A stretch of 39,376 nucleotides of DNA from Kofleriaceae bacterium (GTDB lineage: Bacteria; Myxococcota_A; Polyangia; Haliangiales; Haliangiaceae): the NCBI GenBank assembly GCA_018058095.1, contig JAGPCO010000073.1:1-39376 (forward strand), read 5' to 3'. A program made the translations under genes and the position numbers. This document shows positions 2,115-10,848 of the stretch, in pieces (the stretch's first letter is position 1; every line of letters begins with the position of its first letter). The notes under the pieces are model-generated. The model was given only the letters and a program-made list of their open reading frames with translations, did not search any database and was not told where the DNA came from.

Positions 2115-4646
2115 TCACGGACCGTCGAGCGTGTCGGCCGCCGCCGTCGCCGCCTTGGCCCACGGGCCCTGCGGGAAGGCCTTGGCGTAGCTCAGGTAGG
2201 CCGCCTTGGCCTCCGCCTTCTTGCCCGCGAGCTGCAGCACACGCGCCCGGTTGTAGGACGCGGCCTGCTTGCTGACCGCCTCGCCGGCCGCCCTGGTGAA
2301 GGCCGCCAGCGCGGCGTCGTGCTGGCCGCGCTCGCCGGCGATGATGCCGCGCACGAGCTCGACCTCACCGGTCTTGACGCCGGTGGCGCCCGCGGCCTTG
2401 GCCAGGGTGTCGTCGGCGTCGTCGAGGTTGCCGGCGGCGAGGTAGGTCCCGGCCAGGCCGAGCCGGGCCTTGCCGTAGTTCTCGTCGAGGGCGAGCGCCT
2501 CCTTGAACAGGCCGATGGCCTCCCGCAGCTGCCAGTTGAGGCGACCCTTCTTGTCACCGCTGCCGCGGGTCTTGACCGCGTTGTCGCCGTCGTCGACCAG
2601 CCCGGCGTAGCGGGCGGCGCTGTCGCGCTCGAGCGACCACCGGGTCTGCCAGCGCCCGAGCGGCAGGTCCTTGGCGTTCATCGCCAGCACGCCGAGCTTG
2701 GCGTGGGCGACGCCGAGGTTGTGCAGCACCTCCTTCTGCGCCGGCAGGGTGGCGCGGAACCGGCCGAGGTGCTCGATGCCCTCCTTGTAGGCGGCGACCG
2801 CCTTGCCGAGGTCGTTGCCCTCGAACTTGGCCGCGCGGTCGAGCGCGCCGACGCCGAGCTTGAAGCTGACGAAGGCGTAGCGGACGTCGTTGGTCCAGTA
2901 CTCGGTCAGGTGCTGGACCCGCTCGTCGAAGGTCGGGTGGTCGAGGTGGCGCGGGATCTCGTTCTCCTTGCCGAGCAGCTCCATCAGCTGGATGCCGCCG
3001 CGCGGGTGGTAGCCGGCCAGGAAGGCCATGACGATGCCCTCGCGGTCGGCCTCGATCTCGTGCAGGCGGGTGACGTGGGTCAGGATGGCCGGCTCGATGC
3101 CCGCGTTGGCGTCCTTCATCGCCTCCTGATAGATGTGGCTCTGCACGGTGTGGCGGCGGATGACGTGGGTCAGCTCGTGCGCCATGACGTGGGCCAGCAC
3201 GTCGTGCTTGGCGTCGATCGGCTTGTTCGGCCAGTTCTTCTTGAGGAAGTCGAACATGCCGCGGGTGACGTACATGCTGCCGTCGGGCATGGCGAAGGCG
3301 TTGATCATGCGGGTGCCGAGCACCGCGACCTTGAAGCCGAAGCGCGAGCCCACGCCCGACGCCGCCTGCAGCCGCCCGACGATGTCGCGCAGGGCCGGCA
3401 GCTCGGGTGCGTCGGTCTCGACCCCACCCATCTGCTGCTCGACCAGGCTGACGGCCGCCTTGAACTTGTCGGACGAGAAGACGTCGCCCTCGATGTTGCC
3501 GAACATGACGCCCTGCGTGACCAGGGGGTGATCGGGCGCCAGCTGGGTCAGCTCACCGAGCGCGCGCTCGGCCGCGGCGCTGAAGCGGTCCTTCTCGATG
3601 GCGGCGACGAAGTGGCCGATGGCGGCGGGTTGCTTGCCGTCGAGCTTGTCGAGGATGCCGAGCTCGACGTGCGCCACCGCGTGGCCGGGGTGCCCGCGCA
3701 GCGCCTTCTCGAGGGCCGCCCGCGCCTCGCCGTTCTTGTCGCGCGCGCGCTGCAGGCGGGCGGTCTCGATCAGCGCCTGCGGCAGGTCGGGCGCCAGCGC
3801 CAGCTCGGCCAGGGCGCGAGCGGGGTCGTACGACTCCCCGGCCTTGACCGAGCCCAGCACCATGCCGAGGTGGAAGTGGCACTCCTGGTTGGCCGGCTGC
3901 GTGGCGATACACGACTCGAAGCCCTCGCGCGCCGCCCGCATCCGCTCGGGGATGGCGAAGCCACTCTCGAACGCCGCGTCGTACGCGGTCTTGGCGTCGT
4001 ACACCACCAGCGCGACCGGGTCGGCGGTGAGCTTGACCATGGTCCGCTCGGCCTCGCGGTAGGCCGCGCTGCCCGGACGCAGCGCCGCCAGCGCCAGCGG
4101 CCCGACCTCGAGCGCCTCGGCCTTGGCGGCGGCGTCGCCGGCCAGGGCCCGGTCGCGCACCCGCTCGTAGCGGATGAGCACGACCTCGCGGTGGCGCGGC
4201 GCCAGGGCCACCGCCTTGCCGAGCGCCTCGGTCGCGGTCTTGTCGTCCTTGGCCGCGGTCGCCACGCCGATGAGCGCGACCCACACCTCGACCGCCTTGC
4301 CGTTCTTCTTGGCCAGCGCGCGCAGCGCGTCGACCGCCTGCTTGGGCTTGTCGGCCCGCAGGTACAGCTGGGCCAGCGCCATGCCGGCCGACAGGTTGGT
4401 CTTGTCGAGGCGGAGGATGGCCTCGTACTCGCGAGCCGCGGCCACCGGGTCGCCCGCCCGGACCAGGTGAAACTGCGCCATCCACTCGTGGCGCTGGATC
4501 TGCAGCGCCTTCTTCGACGGCTTGCTAACCTTGCCGCCACGTCTGGGTGCGGCCGTCACCGGGCTGACCGCCGCCGCGATCGCCAGCGCGCCGGCCAACA
4601 CCATCAGGCTGCGTCGCGCCGATGCCCCTTGTGCCTTGCTTCGCAT
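2115..4646 (-). CDS. exported TPR-containing M48-family metalloprotease
   Basis: An 843-residue protein with an N-terminal signal peptide (arginines, then a Leu/Ala-rich core ending near residue 33). TPR-like repeats run from about 55 to 375. The M48 zincin domain follows, with the zinc-binding helix HELTH (about 490-494) and the downstream EIEAD segment that supplies the third ligand, preceded by the typical MYVTRGMFDFL strand. More TPRs lie at about 600-840. This resembles BepA/YfgC-type periplasmic proteases that combine M48 and TPR parts in envelope quality control, but here TPRs flank the protease on both sides. The ATG at 4646 is preferred over 4655 because an AGGG Shine-Dalgarno lies 9 bases upstream. 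The gene follows the CHAT gene by about 57 bases and is probably co-transcribed with it. Confidence 0.9.
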   Translation of the reverse strand: MRSKAQGASARRSLMVLAGALAIAAAVSPVTAAPRRGGKVSKPSKKALQIQRHEWMAQFHLVRAGDPVAAAREYEAILRLDKTNLSAGMALAQLYLRADKPKQAVDALRALAKKNGKAVEVWVALIGVATAAKDDKTATEALGKAVALAPRHREVVLIRYERVRDRALAGDAAAKAEALEVGPLALAALRPGSAAYREAERTMVKLTADPVALVVYDAKTAYDAAFESGFAIPERMRAAREGFESCIATQPANQECHFHLGMVLGSVKAGESYDPARALAELALAPDLPQALIETARLQRARDKNGEARAALEKALRGHPGHAVAHVELGILDKLDGKQPAAIGHFVAAIEKDRFSAAAERALGELTQLAPDHPLVTQGVMFGNIEGDVFSSDKFKAAVSLVEQQMGGVETDAPELPALRDIVGRLQAASGVGSRFGFKVAVLGTRMINAFAMPDGSMYVTRGMFDFLKKNWPNKPIDAKHDVLAHVMAHELTHVIRRHTVQSHIYQEAMKDANAGIEPAILTHVTRLHEIEADREGIVMAFLAGYHPRGGIQLMELLGKENEIPRHLDHPTFDERVQHLTEYWTNDVRYAFVSFKLGVGALDRAAKFEGNDLGKAVAAYKEGIEHLGRFRATLPAQKEVLHNLGVAHAKLGVLAMNAKDLPLGRWQTRWSLERDSAARYAGLVDDGDNAVKTRGSGDKKGRLNWQLREAIGLFKEALALDENYGKARLGLAGTYLAAGNLDDADDTLAKAAGATGVKTGEVELVRGIIAGERGQHDAALAAFTRAAGEAVSKQAASYNRARVLQLAGKKAEAKAAYLSYAKAFPQGPWAKAATAAADTLDGP

Positions 4647-4703
4647 CACATCCATCCCTTCGCAGTTGGTCGTGTCTCGCCCGAGCGCCGGCCGCGCGCG
4701 GGG

Positions 4704-7700
4704 TCAGTCCTTGATCGGCGTGCTCTCTCCAGCCGGCAGGAACGCCGCCCAGAAGAACGGGTGCTGGTACTGCCGGGTCGCCAGCAGCTCGAGCTGGGCC
4801 GACCGCAGCGCCTGGCTGCGACCCTCCCGCTTGCCGAGGCGGCGGTACAAGCCGGTCATGAGATCGCGGGTGGCGGCGTCGTCGACCTGCCACAGGCTCA
4901 TGACCATGGTCTCGGCGCCGGCCACGACCAGCGCCCGGCGCAGGCCGTGCACGCCGTCACCGGTGGTGACCTTGCCGACCGCGGTCTCGCACGCCGACAG
5001 CACGACCAGCTTGGTGCCCCACAGGTCGAGGCTGGTCGCCTCGAGCGCGGTCAAGATGCCGTCGTCCTCACCCGAGGCCAGCTTGTTGGCGCCGGCCAGC
5101 GCCAGCCCCGAGCGCAGCAGCGGGTTCTCGACGCCGGCGCCGGCCGGCGCCACCGCCCCGGCCAGGCTGGCGCCCATCGGGCCGAGCTGACGGGTCGCGC
5201 CGCCGGCGGCGGTCGGCGGTCCGGCCAGCGCCGCCGCCACCTCGTCGTCGGGCAGGAAGAACCCGTGCGTCGCCATGTGCAGGATCCGAGGCGCCTTGAT
5301 CCGCTTGACCGCGGTCTCGGTGGCGGCGCCGCCGCGCAGGATGGAGACCTTGGGCAGCACCTTGGACACCGCGTCGGCCTCCTCGCCGGTGCCGGGCAGG
5401 GCCTCCCAGCTGGTGATGCCGAGATCCCGCGAGCGCAGGCCGCGGGTGGTGCCAGCCGCGGCGGAGGCCGCGCTCGGGCTGGCCGTCGCCGGCTTGGTGC
5501 CGACCGCGCCGTCGAACGCCGGGTCGGCGATGATGAGCGCGCCGCTCTTGGCCTTGGCCCGGACCCCGCCGCGCAGGAGGTCGCGCCCCGAGGTCAGGTA
5601 CGTCATCGTGTGCCGCTGCACCAGGAACTGGCCCTTGCCGTCGACCAGCGCGGCGAAGGCGACCAGGTTGAGCTGACCGTCGGGGGCCAGCAGCAGGTTG
5701 GTGGCGCCGCCCAGGGCCGGCTCGATCTTGGCCATGGTCAGGTCGTACAGCGCGCGCCCACGCTCGCGGGCGCGATCGTTGTCGGGGTCGGCCACCGCGG
5801 TCCGGAACTTCTCGATCGCCTCGTCGATGGGCCCGACCTCGCCCAGCTCGATCCGGACCGGATCACCCTTGCTGGCGATCACGTACGCCAGGTAGCGCTT
5901 GGCCGGGATCTTCTTCGGGTTCCACGGCAGCTCGAACGGCTGCCACTGCAGGAACTCGACCAGCCGCGCCCCGGCCGGGATGGCCTTCTGCACCGCGGCG
6001 AGCTCGACCCGCTGCGTCGCGACCCGGTACGACGCGCTCTTGCTGCGGGCCTGCTCCTCGAGGCGACGCACCTTGTCCTCGAGCGCGGCCACCTCCTTGC
6101 CGTAGGCCTCCTCCTGCCCGGCCTCGGGCCCGGCCACGGTCAGCTTGGACAGCCGCGCCCGCGCCTCCGCCAGCTGGTCGAGCAGGGTCGCGTCGCTGGC
6201 CGACAGCCGGGCCCGCAGCGCGGCCAGGCTGGCGGCGGCCGCGTCGAGGATGCGGCCCTTCCTGCGCAGCAGGGTCGTCACCGCCAGGCGGGCCGCGCGC
6301 GTGCTGCTCGGCGCGAACTTGGCGTGCAGGTTGATGGCCGTGTCGAGCACGTACGCGTTGCGCGTGAAGTACACGGCGTGGTCGCTCTCGTTGCCGGTCG
6401 ACAGCGTCAGCGCCAGATCCGACTCGGCGATGTCCAGGCTCTCGTCGAGGATGACCTCGGCCTTGCCGGCCTGGCCGGCCTGCAGGTACTGGGTCGCCAG
6501 CATGTACAGCATCGAGCCGACCGTGGGGTGGCGCTTGCCCATGGTCTTGCGCAGGTTGTCGATGTAGGCATCGAGCAGCGGGATGGCCTTGGCGTGCTCA
6601 CCCAGGTCACCCAGCACCATCGCCTTCATCGTGTTGTAGGTCGAGCGGTAGCGCTCGCCGGCGCTCCGCACCAGCCACGCCTCGGCCTTGTCGAGCAGGG
6701 CCAGCGCCTCCCGCGGCTTGTTCTGACCGCGCTTGATGTCCGACAGCGTGGCGTACCAGGACGACCCACCGTGGTTGTAAGGCAGCGCCTCGTCGGCGGC
6801 GATGGCCCGGGTCACCGCCGCCTCGGCCCGGTCCCACTGCTCGAGGTTCTTGAGCATCATGCCGAGGAGGCCGAGCGTGCTCGGGATCATCGGGTCCTTG
6901 GGGTTGGCCTTGGCCATCCGCGCCGCCTCGGCCTCGTACACGGCGATGCCCTTGTCGAACAGCGGGCGCGCCAGGTCGGGCCGGCCGCCGTAGTGGTACA
7001 TGCTCGCGACCCCGAAGATGGTGCCGGCCTTGCCGGTCGCCGGCGTGGTGGTGTCCTTCTCGACCCGGGCCAGCAGGCGGTCGTACACCTTGATGGCCTT
7101 GGCCTGCTGGCCGGCCTGCCACAGCATCGAGGCGTACGACTGCATCGCCCCGGGCAGTGACCCGGTCGACAAGGACGAGGTGCCGGCCTCGAGCAAGGCG
7201 ATGGTCTCCTCGTACGCCCGCAGCGACGCGCTGTACGCGCCGCGCTGGGACAGGAAGGCGGCGTACGACATCAGGGCGAGCGCGTACACGTCGCTCTTGG
7301 GCCCGTGCAGCTGGCGCTGCAGCTCGAGCGCGCGCACCTGCAGGGTGTCGGCCTCGGCCAGCCGGCCCATCATCCAGTACATGCTGCCGAGGGTCGACGC
7401 GTACGACGCCACGTCCTGCAGCTGCTTGGCCTTGTCGGCCGCCTCGTACAGCTCGCGGTACAGCGCGGCCGCCGTCGCGTACTGCCCCTCGAGCTGGTAC
7501 TGGCTGGCCAGGAACACCGCGGTGCCCTTGGTGCGGCCATCGCCCAGGCCATACGCCTTCTTCTGGTGCGCCAGCAGGACCCGGCCGATGGCGATGGCCT
7601 TGTCGGTCTCGCGCTTGCCGGACAGCGCGTACATCTCCTGCTGCAGCTTGGTCTCGTCGAGCTTGGCCCCGGCGCCGGCCTTGCCGCGGCCCGGTGCGGC

Positions 7701-7805
7701 CCAGGCCACGCCGCCGGTCCATCCATGCCAGCCAGCCAGGCTGGCGACGACGAACATCAGGACGAGCGCCAGCGCCCGCCCGTTCCCCCGGGATCCCTTG
7801 CGCAT
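4704..7805 (-). CDS. exported TPR-CHAT domain protein (caspase-like peptidase fold)
   Basis: A 1033-residue protein with a cleavable signal peptide (hydrophobic core at about 11-30, then AWA before APG), TPRs from about 50 to 500, a coiled-coil-like helical segment near 540-610, and a C-terminal CHAT domain (about 680-1025). The CHAT catalytic dyad looks intact: His847 in HMATHG and Cys939 in LSACETA, followed by the typical GLRRALVVAGAETMVMSLW block. CHAT proteins are caspase/separase-clan peptidases, often regulated through TPR domains. An exported one must act in the periplasm or outside the cell. It leads an operon with the M48 gene. TAGCCT lies seven bases before the ATG, so the mRNA may be leaderless. 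The substrate is unknown. Confidence 0.9.
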   Translation of the reverse strand: MRKGSRGNGRALALVLMFVVASLAGWHGWTGGVAWAAPGRGKAGAGAKLDETKLQQEMYALSGKRETDKAIAIGRVLLAHQKKAYGLGDGRTKGTAVFLASQYQLEGQYATAAALYRELYEAADKAKQLQDVASYASTLGSMYWMMGRLAEADTLQVRALELQRQLHGPKSDVYALALMSYAAFLSQRGAYSASLRAYEETIALLEAGTSSLSTGSLPGAMQSYASMLWQAGQQAKAIKVYDRLLARVEKDTTTPATGKAGTIFGVASMYHYGGRPDLARPLFDKGIAVYEAEAARMAKANPKDPMIPSTLGLLGMMLKNLEQWDRAEAAVTRAIAADEALPYNHGGSSWYATLSDIKRGQNKPREALALLDKAEAWLVRSAGERYRSTYNTMKAMVLGDLGEHAKAIPLLDAYIDNLRKTMGKRHPTVGSMLYMLATQYLQAGQAGKAEVILDESLDIAESDLALTLSTGNESDHAVYFTRNAYVLDTAINLHAKFAPSSTRAARLAVTTLLRRKGRILDAAAASLAALRARLSASDATLLDQLAEARARLSKLTVAGPEAGQEEAYGKEVAALEDKVRRLEEQARSKSASYRVATQRVELAAVQKAIPAGARLVEFLQWQPFELPWNPKKIPAKRYLAYVIASKGDPVRIELGEVGPIDEAIEKFRTAVADPDNDRARERGRALYDLTMAKIEPALGGATNLLLAPDGQLNLVAFAALVDGKGQFLVQRHTMTYLTSGRDLLRGGVRAKAKSGALIIADPAFDGAVGTKPATASPSAASAAAGTTRGLRSRDLGITSWEALPGTGEEADAVSKVLPKVSILRGGAATETAVKRIKAPRILHMATHGFFLPDDEVAAALAGPPTAAGGATRQLGPMGASLAGAVAPAGAGVENPLLRSGLALAGANKLASGEDDGILTALEATSLDLWGTKLVVLSACETAVGKVTTGDGVHGLRRALVVAGAETMVMSLWQVDDAATRDLMTGLYRRLGKREGRSQALRSAQLELLATRQYQHPFFWAAFLPAGESTPIKD

Positions 7806-7850: not shown

Positions 7851-8114
7851 CTACGCCCGCGGCATCAGGCCGCGCTGGCGCAGGCCATCGAGCTGCTGGG
7901 TCAGGCGGGCATCGGCCAGCAGCTCGCGCATGCCGGGGCGGGCGTCGACCGAGGCGTTGCCGGCGGCGGCCATGAACACGTCGTGGGGCACGCCGAGGCG
8001 GGCGAACGCGGCCGCGGCCTGTGCGAGCAGGTGCATGGCCTCGGCCGGCACCGTCACGTCGACGGCGGCCTCGGGAGCCTCGGGGGCGCGAGCGAGCGGG
8101 CTGGGCGACTTCAT
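7851..8114 (-). CDS. small hypothetical protein, 87 residues
   Basis: I do not recognise this protein. It has an Ala/Pro-rich N-terminus and then helical segments; the C-terminal part (about 45-87) contains ARPGMRELLADARLTQQLDGLRQ-type sequence and looks like a small helical domain. No signal peptide is seen from the ATG at 8114. A TTG at 8150 would add a short hydrophobic lead (AVLLLAV), so the start is uncertain. It lies alone between the CHAT operon and a lipoprotein gene with the same orientation. No RBS or -10 motif supports either start. Confidence 0.5.
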   Translation of the reverse strand: MKSPSPLARAPEAPEAAVDVTVPAEAMHLLAQAAAAFARLGVPHDVFMAAAGNASVDARPGMRELLADARLTQQLDGLRQRGLMPRA

Positions 8115-8176
8115 GACGGCCAAGAGAAGCACGGCCGGGTGACAGCGCAAGCTGCCCTGTTGACCAGGTCGCCCGC

Positions 8177-8650
8177 TCAGCTGCCCGGGCAGGACAACGT
8201 CGCGAGATCGACCACCTTGCCGTCGCGGTTCATGCGGAACCGGAGCTCGCGCTGCCAGTTCGTCGTGCCCGAGATGTCACCGACGTAGGTCGAGATGCGG
8301 CAGAACCAGAAGCCCGAGTCGGCCGGCGGGTCGTCTGGCAGGGTGGCGGTCGTGAACCCGCCGCAGCCGCCCTCGACGCGGTGGACGTCGCCGGGTGCGC
8401 GGCCTTGCTCGCCGGCCTTGAACAGCTCCTGCACGTACGCCCCCAGCGACTGGTCGGCCGGGCAGCCGCGCTTCTGCGCTGCGGCGTCGAAGGTGTGGTC
8501 CTTGTTGGCCACCAGCATCTGCCGCATCTCCGGCAGCTCGGGCGGAGGCCCGTTGAACTGACCACCACCGCCGGTCGGCTCCTCGCTCCCCGGCGCGACC
8601 GGGCCGCAACCAGCCACCAGCACCAACATGAGCATTCGGGCCGCGTGCAC
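8177..8650 (-). CDS. lipoprotein, unknown function
   Basis: A 157-residue protein not assigned to a family. The GTG start at 8650 gives a short signal peptide with a VAGC lipobox (Cys about 15), and TATTCT sits exactly six bases upstream of that GTG. The frame is open upstream but that part is not signal-peptide-like. The mature domain has four cysteines (in KRGCPAD, GGCGGF, FWFCRI and the C-terminal LSCPGS) that could form two disulfides, as expected of an exported domain. A compact periplasmic or surface-anchored domain is inferred. Confidence 0.72.
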   Translation of the reverse strand: MHAARMLMLVLVAGCGPVAPGSEEPTGGGGQFNGPPPELPEMRQMLVANKDHTFDAAAQKRGCPADQSLGAYVQELFKAGEQGRAPGDVHRVEGGCGGFTTATLPDDPPADSGFWFCRISTYVGDISGTTNWQRELRFRMNRDGKVVDLATLSCPGS

Positions 8651-8656
8651 GCCAGA

Positions 8657-8662
8657 AGAATA
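8657..8662 (-). promoter_or_regulatory. -10 hexamer TATTCT six bases before a GTG start
   Basis: TATTCT on the minus strand, then TCTGGC, then the GTG at 8650. It is a near-consensus -10 in GC-rich surroundings and supports a leaderless transcript for the lipoprotein gene. Confidence 0.6.
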
Positions 8663-8736
8663 CGGATCTGCGACGGGGATACCAGGGCTGCGACCGGGGA
8701 GTTTCGATCTCACGGCCGCACGCGGGGCCGCCTGGC

Positions 8737-9597
8737 CTAGTCCTCTCGGACCGCCACCTTGTGGCGTGGGTACAGCACGATCTCGATGCGTCGGTTCCGG
8801 GCCCGGTTGCGACTGGCCGGCCGGTACTCGCCGAACGCCACCGCCGCCAGGCGCCGGGGGTCGACCTTGACCTCGTCCTGGAGGTAGTGAACCACCGTCA
8901 ATGCCCGCGCCGATGACAGCTCCCAGTTCGAGGCGAAGCGGGCCACCGCCACCGGGGCAGGCGCTGGCTTGGCCTTGCCCTTGCCCTTGCCAGGCTCTCT
9001 GGGCGGTGCCTTGGGCGCGGCGATCGGCTGGTCGTCGGTGTGACCCTGGACCCAGATCTGCTTGTCCTCGAGATCGTTGAGCGCCTTGCCGACCCGGCCG
9101 AGCACGTCGCGCCCGCTCGCGGTCAGCTCGGCCTCGCCGGTGCGGAACAAGATCTTGTCGACCAGCTCGAGGTGGATCGCCCCGTCGGCCGACGACACCT
9201 CGCCCTGCTTGCCGACGACGAGGGCCAGCTGCTCCTCGAGCTTCTTGGCCTCGGCCGCCTTCTTGGCCAGCTCGTCCTGCTCGGCCCGCAGCGTCGCCGC
9301 CGCGCGCTCGGCCGCGTCCTGACCGGTGCGGGCCTCGGCCAGCTGGGCCTCGAGCGCTGAGATGGCCTCCGGCGCCGCCGACAGCCCGGCGCTGGGCTGG
9401 GGCGCCGCCGCCGGCTTCGGGTACACCAGCCAGGTTACGAGCGCGCCCGCCAGCGCGGCGCCGAGGCCGATGCCGAGCAGGCGCCCGCGCCCGCCGGCGT
9501 GGCCTGGCTCGTCGCGCTCCGACCGCTGCCGCGGCGCCGGCGGATAGCTGCCGGGCTTGACCAGTACACCGCTCGGATCACCGTCGCCGCGGGCCAT
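8737..9597 (-). CDS. MotB/OmpA-like peptidoglycan-binding membrane protein
   Basis: A 286-residue protein with a cytoplasmic Pro/Arg-rich N-terminus, one membrane segment (about 40-60), an Ala/Glu/Lys-rich coiled coil (about 75-130) and a C-terminal OmpA/MotB domain. The domain shows ILFRTGEAELTASGRDVL, GHTDDQPI, NWELSSARA and the arginine-rich NRARNRRIEI end, all typical of the MotB type that anchors to peptidoglycan. An unusual insertion of about 30 residues, rich in Lys, Pro, Gly and Ala, separates GHTDDQPI from NWELS. No motA or flagellar gene is nearby, so a general cell-wall anchor is as likely as a motor role. The ATG at 9597 was chosen; TACCGT lies five bases upstream. Confidence 0.85.
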   Translation of the reverse strand: MARGDGDPSGVLVKPGSYPPAPRQRSERDEPGHAGGRGRLLGIGLGAALAGALVTWLVYPKPAAAPQPSAGLSAAPEAISALEAQLAEARTGQDAAERAAATLRAEQDELAKKAAEAKKLEEQLALVVGKQGEVSSADGAIHLELVDKILFRTGEAELTASGRDVLGRVGKALNDLEDKQIWVQGHTDDQPIAAPKAPPREPGKGKGKAKPAPAPVAVARFASNWELSSARALTVVHYLQDEVKVDPRRLAAVAFGEYRPASRNRARNRRIEIVLYPRHKVAVRED

Positions 9598-9602
9598 GCG
9601 GC

Positions 9603-9608
9603 ACGGTA
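9603..9608 (-). promoter_or_regulatory. -10-like TACCGT, MotB/OmpA-like gene
   Basis: TACCGT on the minus strand lies five bases before the ATG at 9597. It fits the leaderless pattern of the window, with slightly shorter spacing. Confidence 0.4.
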
Positions 9609-9633
9609 ACACGGCGGACCGCGCCGCCGGCGC

Positions 9634-10848
9634 TCAGGCTCGAGCGCGGGTCCAGCGCGCCGGCCAGAAGCCGACGACCGCGGCGGGGATCAGCGGCCAG
9701 GCGACGATGGGCCAGAGCGGCTGGTGCAGCACGTCGACCAGGAGCAGCAGCGCGACCAGGCCGATCATCCCGACGCGCCCGCGCGCGTACAGCAGGCGCC
9801 AGCGCGGCGGCCCGACCGCGAGCATCACGTCGAGCGGCAGCAGCAGCAGGCAGGTCTCGTTCCAGCGCACGTACGGCAGCGGGCTGATGAGCGCGAGCAC
9901 CCAGAACGCCAGGCCGAGCACCAGCTGCGGCACCAGCGCGACCCACAGCCCGGTGCGGCCGAAGCGCCCGAGCCAGCGCGAGATCCAGGCCGGCGCCGTC
10001 AGCAGCAGCACGACCAGCGCCAGCAGCACGCGCCCGCTCGGGCCGTCGTCCTGCGGCGGTGGGCCGCGCCGCTGGTACACCACGATCGGCTCGATGCCCC
10101 ACAGGCGGGTCGCCGCCTCGCGCATGTAGTCGGGCAGGAACATACGCTCGTAGTAGGTCGGCACGCGGTCGGTCGCGCGGCCCATCGCCAGGTCGGTGAT
10201 GAGCAGCGGCAGGCGCATGCCATAGAAGCCCTTGCGCGCCAGGTCGCGGTAGGTCAGGCCGTCGGCCGGCGCGGTCAGCGCGCGCAGCTTGCCGCCGGTC
10301 GCCTCGTCGAGGACGTCGCGCACCCGGGTCGTGCAGTTGTCCCAGAAGTGATCGTAGGCGTAGTACTTGTTGGCCTCCTGCACGTCGTGGTCGAGGCGCG
10401 CCAGCACGCGCTGCTTCTCCTCGGGCGACAGCGGCAGCGGCTGGACCCAGATGGTGCGGTCGGCGCCCTCGTAGATCGAGAACATCTGCCGCGGCGTCTG
10501 CTCGCCAGCCCAGAAGCTGTTGGTGCCGCGGAAGAAGCCCCAGCCCATGCCGACCGGGTCGGCGAAGTTGCCGATGCCGTAGTTGTAACAAACGCTGCCC
10601 GACGGGTTGGCCTGGCGCACGCACAGGGCGATGTGGCCGTGCCGCTCCCAGATGAGCGCGCCCACGCCCATCGTCACCAGCTCGACCACCGGGTAGTCCT
10701 GGTACAGCCGCGCCACCTCAGGCGGCACGTTGCGCGGCTGGGCCTGGGCCGAGCGTGTCGCTCCGCCGGTGAGCGCGGTCAGCACCACCGCCAGCACCAG
10801 CACGTGCCGCGGCCAACAGCACGAACGGAGACCGCGACCAGCTGCCAT
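9634..10848 (-). CDS. DUF4105 (Lnb N-terminal-like) membrane protein
   Basis: A 404-residue protein with a signal sequence (to about residue 37). The DUF4105 domain follows, recognised by WERHGHIALCV, CYNYGIGNFADP, FFRGTNSFW and YAYDHFWDNCTTRVRD; the last segment carries the conserved His/Asn/Cys cluster. The C-terminal third has several membrane helices (about 265-400). DUF4105 is related to the N-terminal periplasmic domain of Lnb, a lipoprotein N-acyltransferase found in some Gram-positives, and the conserved His and Cys suggest a thiol-based catalytic site. Whether this one acts on lipids or lipoproteins is not shown by the sequence. It diverges from the beta-lactamase-like gene. GACACT sits six bases before the ATG at 10848. 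Confidence 0.85.
   Translation of the reverse strand: MAAGRGLRSCCWPRHVLVLAVVLTALTGGATRSAQAQPRNVPPEVARLYQDYPVVELVTMGVGALIWERHGHIALCVRQANPSGSVCYNYGIGNFADPVGMGWGFFRGTNSFWAGEQTPRQMFSIYEGADRTIWVQPLPLSPEEKQRVLARLDHDVQEANKYYAYDHFWDNCTTRVRDVLDEATGGKLRALTAPADGLTYRDLARKGFYGMRLPLLITDLAMGRATDRVPTYYERMFLPDYMREAATRLWGIEPIVVYQRRGPPPQDDGPSGRVLLALVVLLLTAPAWISRWLGRFGRTGLWVALVPQLVLGLAFWVLALISPLPYVRWNETCLLLLPLDVMLAVGPPRWRLLYARGRVGMIGLVALLLLVDVLHQPLWPIVAWPLIPAAVVGFWPARWTRARA

Follow-up and report, generated by a model that had tools for sequence, protein, structure and literature searches.

The locus and its two proteins

The window, a stretch of 39,376 nucleotides from a Kofleriaceae bacterium, carries on its minus strand a gene for a CHAT peptidase-like protein (4704-7805, 1033 aa) that is followed, after 48 nt, by a gene for an M48 metallopeptidase-like protein (2115-4655, 846 aa). 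A preliminary description of this DNA had placed both frames at 2115-7805 and assigned TPRs to each product, with which the open reading frames and Pfam domains agree; it had also called the arrangement an operon, and the shared strand and the 48-nt spacing bear this out, making a single transcript for the two genes very likely. Since the proteins are conserved, with 43-55% identity in full-length relatives, neither gene is a chance frame. A scan for sigma-70 promoters and terminators returned 0 promoters and one terminator-like site, below the counts obtained in shuffles. The annotated neighbors of the pair are VWA, OmpA and Lnb_N proteins. Specifically, the upstream region at 7851-10803 holds, likewise on the minus strand, an 87-aa open frame that matches no family, a small lipoprotein-like gene and two genes of the OmpA-domain and Lnb_N types, and as these same-direction genes are spaced by 36-101 nt, the transcript may exceed two genes.

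The CHAT protein starts with a leader, after which come a long TPR array, then a helical linker and finally the CHAT peptidase domain; it is by its sequence a predicted exported cysteine peptidase of clan CD with a complete predicted His-Cys active site. The putative signal peptide (about residues 1-37, 7695-7805) scores 3.1 under a crude leader rule and is followed by no later transmembrane segment; the N-terminal TPR array (about residues 55-464, 6414-7643) is supported by TPR_12 repeats, by kinesin-light-chain-like matches reaching residue 464 and by helical pairs in the structure model. The peptidase domain (residues 681-1026, 4728-5765) matches PF12770 with 260 bits against a curated cut-off of 24 (E 3.9e-77). 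Intact catalytic residues had been proposed before, and indeed both His847 (codon 5265-5267, within HMATHGFF) and Cys939 (codon 4989-4991, within LSACET) are the same in all 12 aligned rows, a count that omits L032, L047 and L051, which are fragmentary, as well as L089, L091, L094 and L105. Two of these omitted rows, L089 and L091, likewise carry the dyad. The structure model, built from 5 sequences, is weak (pLDDT 60, with low values across much of the CHAT domain); its strand and helix order is plausible, and its Foldseek list is headed by TPR proteins, with separase at rank 48.

The M48 protein carries its peptidase domain (residues 422-585, 2901-3392; PF01435, 54.2 bits against a curated cut-off of 20.3, E 2.2e-14) between TPRs of several families on both sides. 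Its translation more likely starts at Met4 (4646), which lies 9 nt past a GAAGGG motif, judging from the sequence. The intact HELTH motif reported previously is found at residues 493-497 (3165-3179) and supplies H493, E494 and H497 of the zinc site, with E533 of an ExxAD motif as the third ligand, and an HPx4R motif (residues 573-579, 2919-2939) matches the active-site plug of BepA (PMC7950410); all four of these zinc-site residues together with H573, P574 and R579 show no variation among the 4 aligned rows. The description of this protein as a BepA-like TPR metalloprotease thereby stands for the zinc site and the plug motif; it does not stand for the domain order, which is TPR-M48-TPR as opposed to the M48-then-TPR order of BepA. 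The protein contains exactly two cysteines, Cys249 and Cys259, which are retained in the three close orthologs (window, G015 and G045). In the structure model, which is weak as well (4 sequences, pLDDT 72), they lie in adjacent helices (235-252 and 257-268) near the turn, so that a disulfide between them is plausible.

Both proteins are very probably exported, as had been suggested, and two independent lines of evidence, leaders and cysteine content, argue for this. First, each N-terminus looks like a classical Sec leader: that of the CHAT protein has a basic start, ALALVLMFVVASLAGW and then AWAA, and that of the M48 protein (about residues 1-36, 4548-4655) has RSKAQGASARRS, LMVLAGALAIAAAV and then VTAA. 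These calls combine a reading of the N-termini with a home-made crude rule (a hydrophobic 11-mer, small residues after it and no later transmembrane segment), which both proteins satisfy. Second, Cys939 is the sole cysteine among the 1033 residues of the CHAT protein, where about 11 would be expected from the mean of 10.75 per 1000 aa in the called genes of the window (P about 2e-4). In five CHAT relatives without M48, too, the only cysteine of the mature chain is the catalytic one; the L087 protein has a second cysteine upstream of its likely start, and the G015 copy has two cysteines. For the M48 protein, the retained Cys249 and Cys259 likewise count in favor of export.

Distribution of the pair

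In a search of 317 genomes of the class, M48 relatives with E values up to 1e-15 were found in 10 genomes and those with E 0 in three, namely the window's own genome, G015 (same genus, 55% identity) and G045 (another family, 52%). In all three genomes that hold it, the close M48 gene lies directly after CHAT on the same strand, with about 16 nt between the genes in G015 and a 4-nt overlap in G045. In the G015 CHAT gene the reading frame is interrupted after the leader, ahead of the body. In G045 the M48 gene is intact and CHAT is present as a C-terminal fragment only, of about 180 residues and without the His and the TPRs. Specifically, the CHAT gene is severed there within the His-Cys loop (L032, 9224-9977) and abuts a truncated-looking open frame on the opposite strand, which we take to resemble an AHSA1-type gene lacking its start; this configuration points to a deletion or a misassembly.

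Within the family, a CHAT ortholog is present in 7 of 30 genomes, all 7 of them among the 16 genomes of the window's own genus, and five of these seven (59-96% complete) have no M48 gene beside CHAT nor in the class search. Across the phylum, M48 relatives occur in 13 of 377 genomes, including the window's genome and G045. Ten of the remaining eleven also have CHAT matches, with none in G232, and among the matches listed no CHAT lies on the contig of the M48 gene in these eleven genomes, several of the contigs being short and the M48 gene of G237 being split over two. The more distant M48 relatives are not adjacent to CHAT, with gene calls absent or partial around L077, L079 and L081. Separately, in family f28 the M48 relative is accompanied in three genomes (L081, L083 and L084) by a downstream permease-like gene of one shared cluster. 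From the CHAT side, an M48-domain profile found no match, even at E 0.1, among 301 genes called in 40 CHAT loci; this profile is sensitive beyond its own alignment and recovered M48 genes such as L078 and L083. A contig scan with two short peptide patterns missed M48 relatives that the whole-genome search recovered, and the rarity of the M48 gene is therefore certain only for genomes searched whole. The class, family and phylum searches thus rule out a widely conserved CHAT-M48 pair. Conservation of the pairing, which the preliminary description had put up for checking, holds from the side of the close M48 gene (3 of 3, one with a CHAT fragment) but fails in five of the seven CHAT holders of the family.

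In the gene trees, the M48 copies of G015 and G045 are grouped and the window's copy stands apart (94/95); in the CHAT tree the window's copy falls outside the others and G015 lies among unpaired copies, with the forks among G015, G045 and G001 unresolved. The G015 genome (12.2 Mb in 780 contigs) might contain foreign contigs. Together, these tree shapes make the pairing compatible with an ancestral unit that would have lost M48 repeatedly, or with a unit that moved together.

Export itself appears widespread among Myxococcota CHAT proteins. PF12770 is present in 49 of 112 genomes of the phylum (E up to 1e-20), and 40 CHAT loci were chosen, non-randomly, from the better-scoring matches. The CHAT gene was called in 35 of these loci, and 25 of the 35 pass the crude leader rule, as compared with 70 of 234 other genes in the same loci (Fisher P 5e-6); of the ten that fail, several look by eye like leaders or lipoprotein signals. 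Exported CHAT proteins thus appear to be common in the phylum, and the earlier view that export sets this CHAT protein apart, as an oddity of the locus, is overturned by this sample. Literature searches, judged by titles and abstract starts, returned nothing on exported or myxobacterial CHAT proteins; none of the papers in the collection searched mentions both the CHAT domain and M48, and the portions available of PMC10907252 and PMC7159879 contain nothing bearing on exported CHAT proteins. Export across the phylum and the near-absence of non-catalytic cysteines in this subfamily suggest that envelope cysteine proteases of this kind form a large class that has been little studied; the paired M48 protein is one concrete partner for finding what exported CHAT proteins cut.

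The window's own genome also holds a second CHAT gene (L037, G000:C136, 1659-5335), in which a zinc finger of the anti-sigma type (zf-HC2) precedes, in one fused protein, a partial CHAT match at the C-terminus. It lies directly after a gene for an ECF-type sigma factor, and its product may be an anti-sigma factor linked to CHAT.

Possible roles in the envelope

The reading that we favor, tentatively and with a probability of about 0.42, is an operon for a pair of exported endopeptidases guided by TPRs, with CHAT as the core and M48 as the accessory enzyme, that probably serves envelope protein processing or turnover. The two proteins would be co-transcribed and active in the periplasm or the outer envelope. 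By analogy with partner binding in Csx29, the TPR superhelix of the CHAT protein may bind a ligand or client and thereby gate the cysteine protease, which would make limited cuts in TPR-recruited envelope proteins. The M48 protein, for its part, may by analogy with BepA be an accessory zinc protease that is plugged by itself and opened by clients held by its two TPR arms, and it would clear the products or misfolded clients. That CHAT is the core is suggested by the occurrence patterns, in which CHAT without M48 is common and a close M48 gene without at least part of CHAT was not seen. As CHAT persists alone in most of the family's holders, it does not need M48; the intact M48 gene beside the CHAT fragment of G045 indicates that M48 may not need CHAT either, unless that contig is misassembled. 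The odds that the two proteins act in a shared pathway appear evenly balanced, and shared clients in envelope turnover are somewhat less probable, though of the conceivable links between the two proteins this is the likeliest. The frame break in the G015 CHAT gene, the distant M48 relatives away from CHAT and the weak structure models count against this explanation.

It is possible, if doubtful, that the two are instead unrelated exported proteases sharing a transcript, with CHAT doing its usual job and M48 being a quality-control protease of its own that happens to lie in the operon. CHAT is alone in five of its seven holders in the family and M48-like proteins stand alone elsewhere, and the upstream same-strand Lnb_N and OmpA genes are not kept beside CHAT in G015. 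However, gene order and strand are identical in three genomes although the M48 proteins are only 52-55% identical and one comes from another family; all 3 close M48 genes lie beside CHAT and none elsewhere; and in both trees the window's copy falls outside those of G015 and G045, the CHAT branching being partly unresolved.

Direct cleavage of one protein by the other is improbable, and so is an activation cascade built upon it, in which M48 would cut the long disordered loop that separates His847 from Cys939 or CHAT would remove an inhibitory segment of M48. This Ala/Pro/Gly-rich, variable loop (residues 852-892, 5130-5252) is predicted to be disordered (pLDDT <50) and measures 41 residues in the window's CHAT protein as against 17-40 in six relatives. 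The His-Cys spacing is 92 residues here and 91 in the other pair with this region intact, both beside an intact M48 gene; five unpaired relatives have spacings of 68-85 residues, and 31 other CHAT proteins have spacings of 41-88. Being long and disordered, the loop is a candidate processing site, and the M48 protein carries the HPx4R plug that is inhibitory in BepA (PMC7950410). Yet two paired sequences with an intact loop cannot carry the claim, a long loop is a trait of the wider subfamily (up to 88 elsewhere), and CHAT proteins without an M48 neighbor retain the dyad. Slightly less probable still is a mutual version, an extracytoplasmic relay in which a TPR-sensed CHAT protein and a self-plugged TPR-M48 protein would activate each other by cutting the CHAT loop or the M48 plug region; if true, it would amount to a caspase-like cascade in the bacterial envelope. 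That CHAT serves here as a non-proteolytic scaffold or receptor built of TPRs, leaving M48 the sole working enzyme, is quite unlikely as well: the weakness of its structure model leaves some room for this, but the invariant dyad (12 of 12 rows), the near-complete absence of other cysteines in its own subfamily and the solo CHAT proteins that keep the dyad with no M48 neighbor speak against it.

Comparison with known systems

Several identities were considered and rejected. Membership in the catalogued anti-phage defenses is not borne out, as the sole PADLOC match of the CHAT protein is to a generic TPR model (E 0.0078) and the M48 protein has none. A viral or mobile origin was likewise set aside, with no relative in viral contigs for the queries A1 and A3; a broader query, A4, returned three distant CHAT proteins there (30-38%). 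Two of these three, on IMG/VR contigs L125 (2057-4693) and L126 (1970-4648), are CHAT-like proteins with hydrophobic N-terminal stretches. TPR proteins dominated the fold searches, in Foldseek for both structure models and in VIA for that of the M48 protein, and the VIA list, on which BepA and other M48 chains are not among the matches listed, is uninformative for this reason. Because full-length profiles, too, mostly returned TPR proteins, the CHAT domain was searched alone in the PDB.

The best-studied bacterial CHAT protease acts inside the cell, on CRISPR signals. Csx29, the TPR-CHAT protein of type III-E CRISPR (Craspase), shares with the window's CHAT protein the order of TPRs followed by a CHAT peptidase, and the cysteine of its LGACET motif, C627 by position in 7x8a numbering, aligns with Cys939, the profile match being weak (E 0.33). 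The His-Cys spacing is 42 residues in Csx29 as opposed to 92 here, and Csx29 acts with Cas7-11, whereas the window's protein carries a signal peptide and lacks an annotated Cas neighbor. The signal peptide and the VWA, OmpA and Lnb_N neighbors speak against membership in type III-E CRISPR. In Csx29, target binding shifts a linker region and brings the His-Cys distance from about 7 to about 3 angstroms (PMC9729208).

The M48 protein is similar in kind to E. coli periplasmic BepA (YfgC), with which it shares export, an M48 domain with HExxH and a Glu ligand, the HPx4R plug and TPRs; it is not a BepA equivalog, reaching 31.3 bits on the NCBIfam BepA model, where the cut-off is 570. In BepA, the plug His takes the fourth zinc site and its movement is required for activity (PMC7950410). 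The Geobacter M48 peptidase 3c37 aligns with residues 397-583 (E 4.3e-6) and is a 253-residue chain without the long TPR arms of the window's protein. The other exported TPR-CHAT proteins of Myxococcota are alike in leader and His-Cys dyad, and differ in having no such M48 gene nearby. Taken together, the locus is a new combination of known kinds, an exported CHAT protein encoded next to an exported M48 protein.
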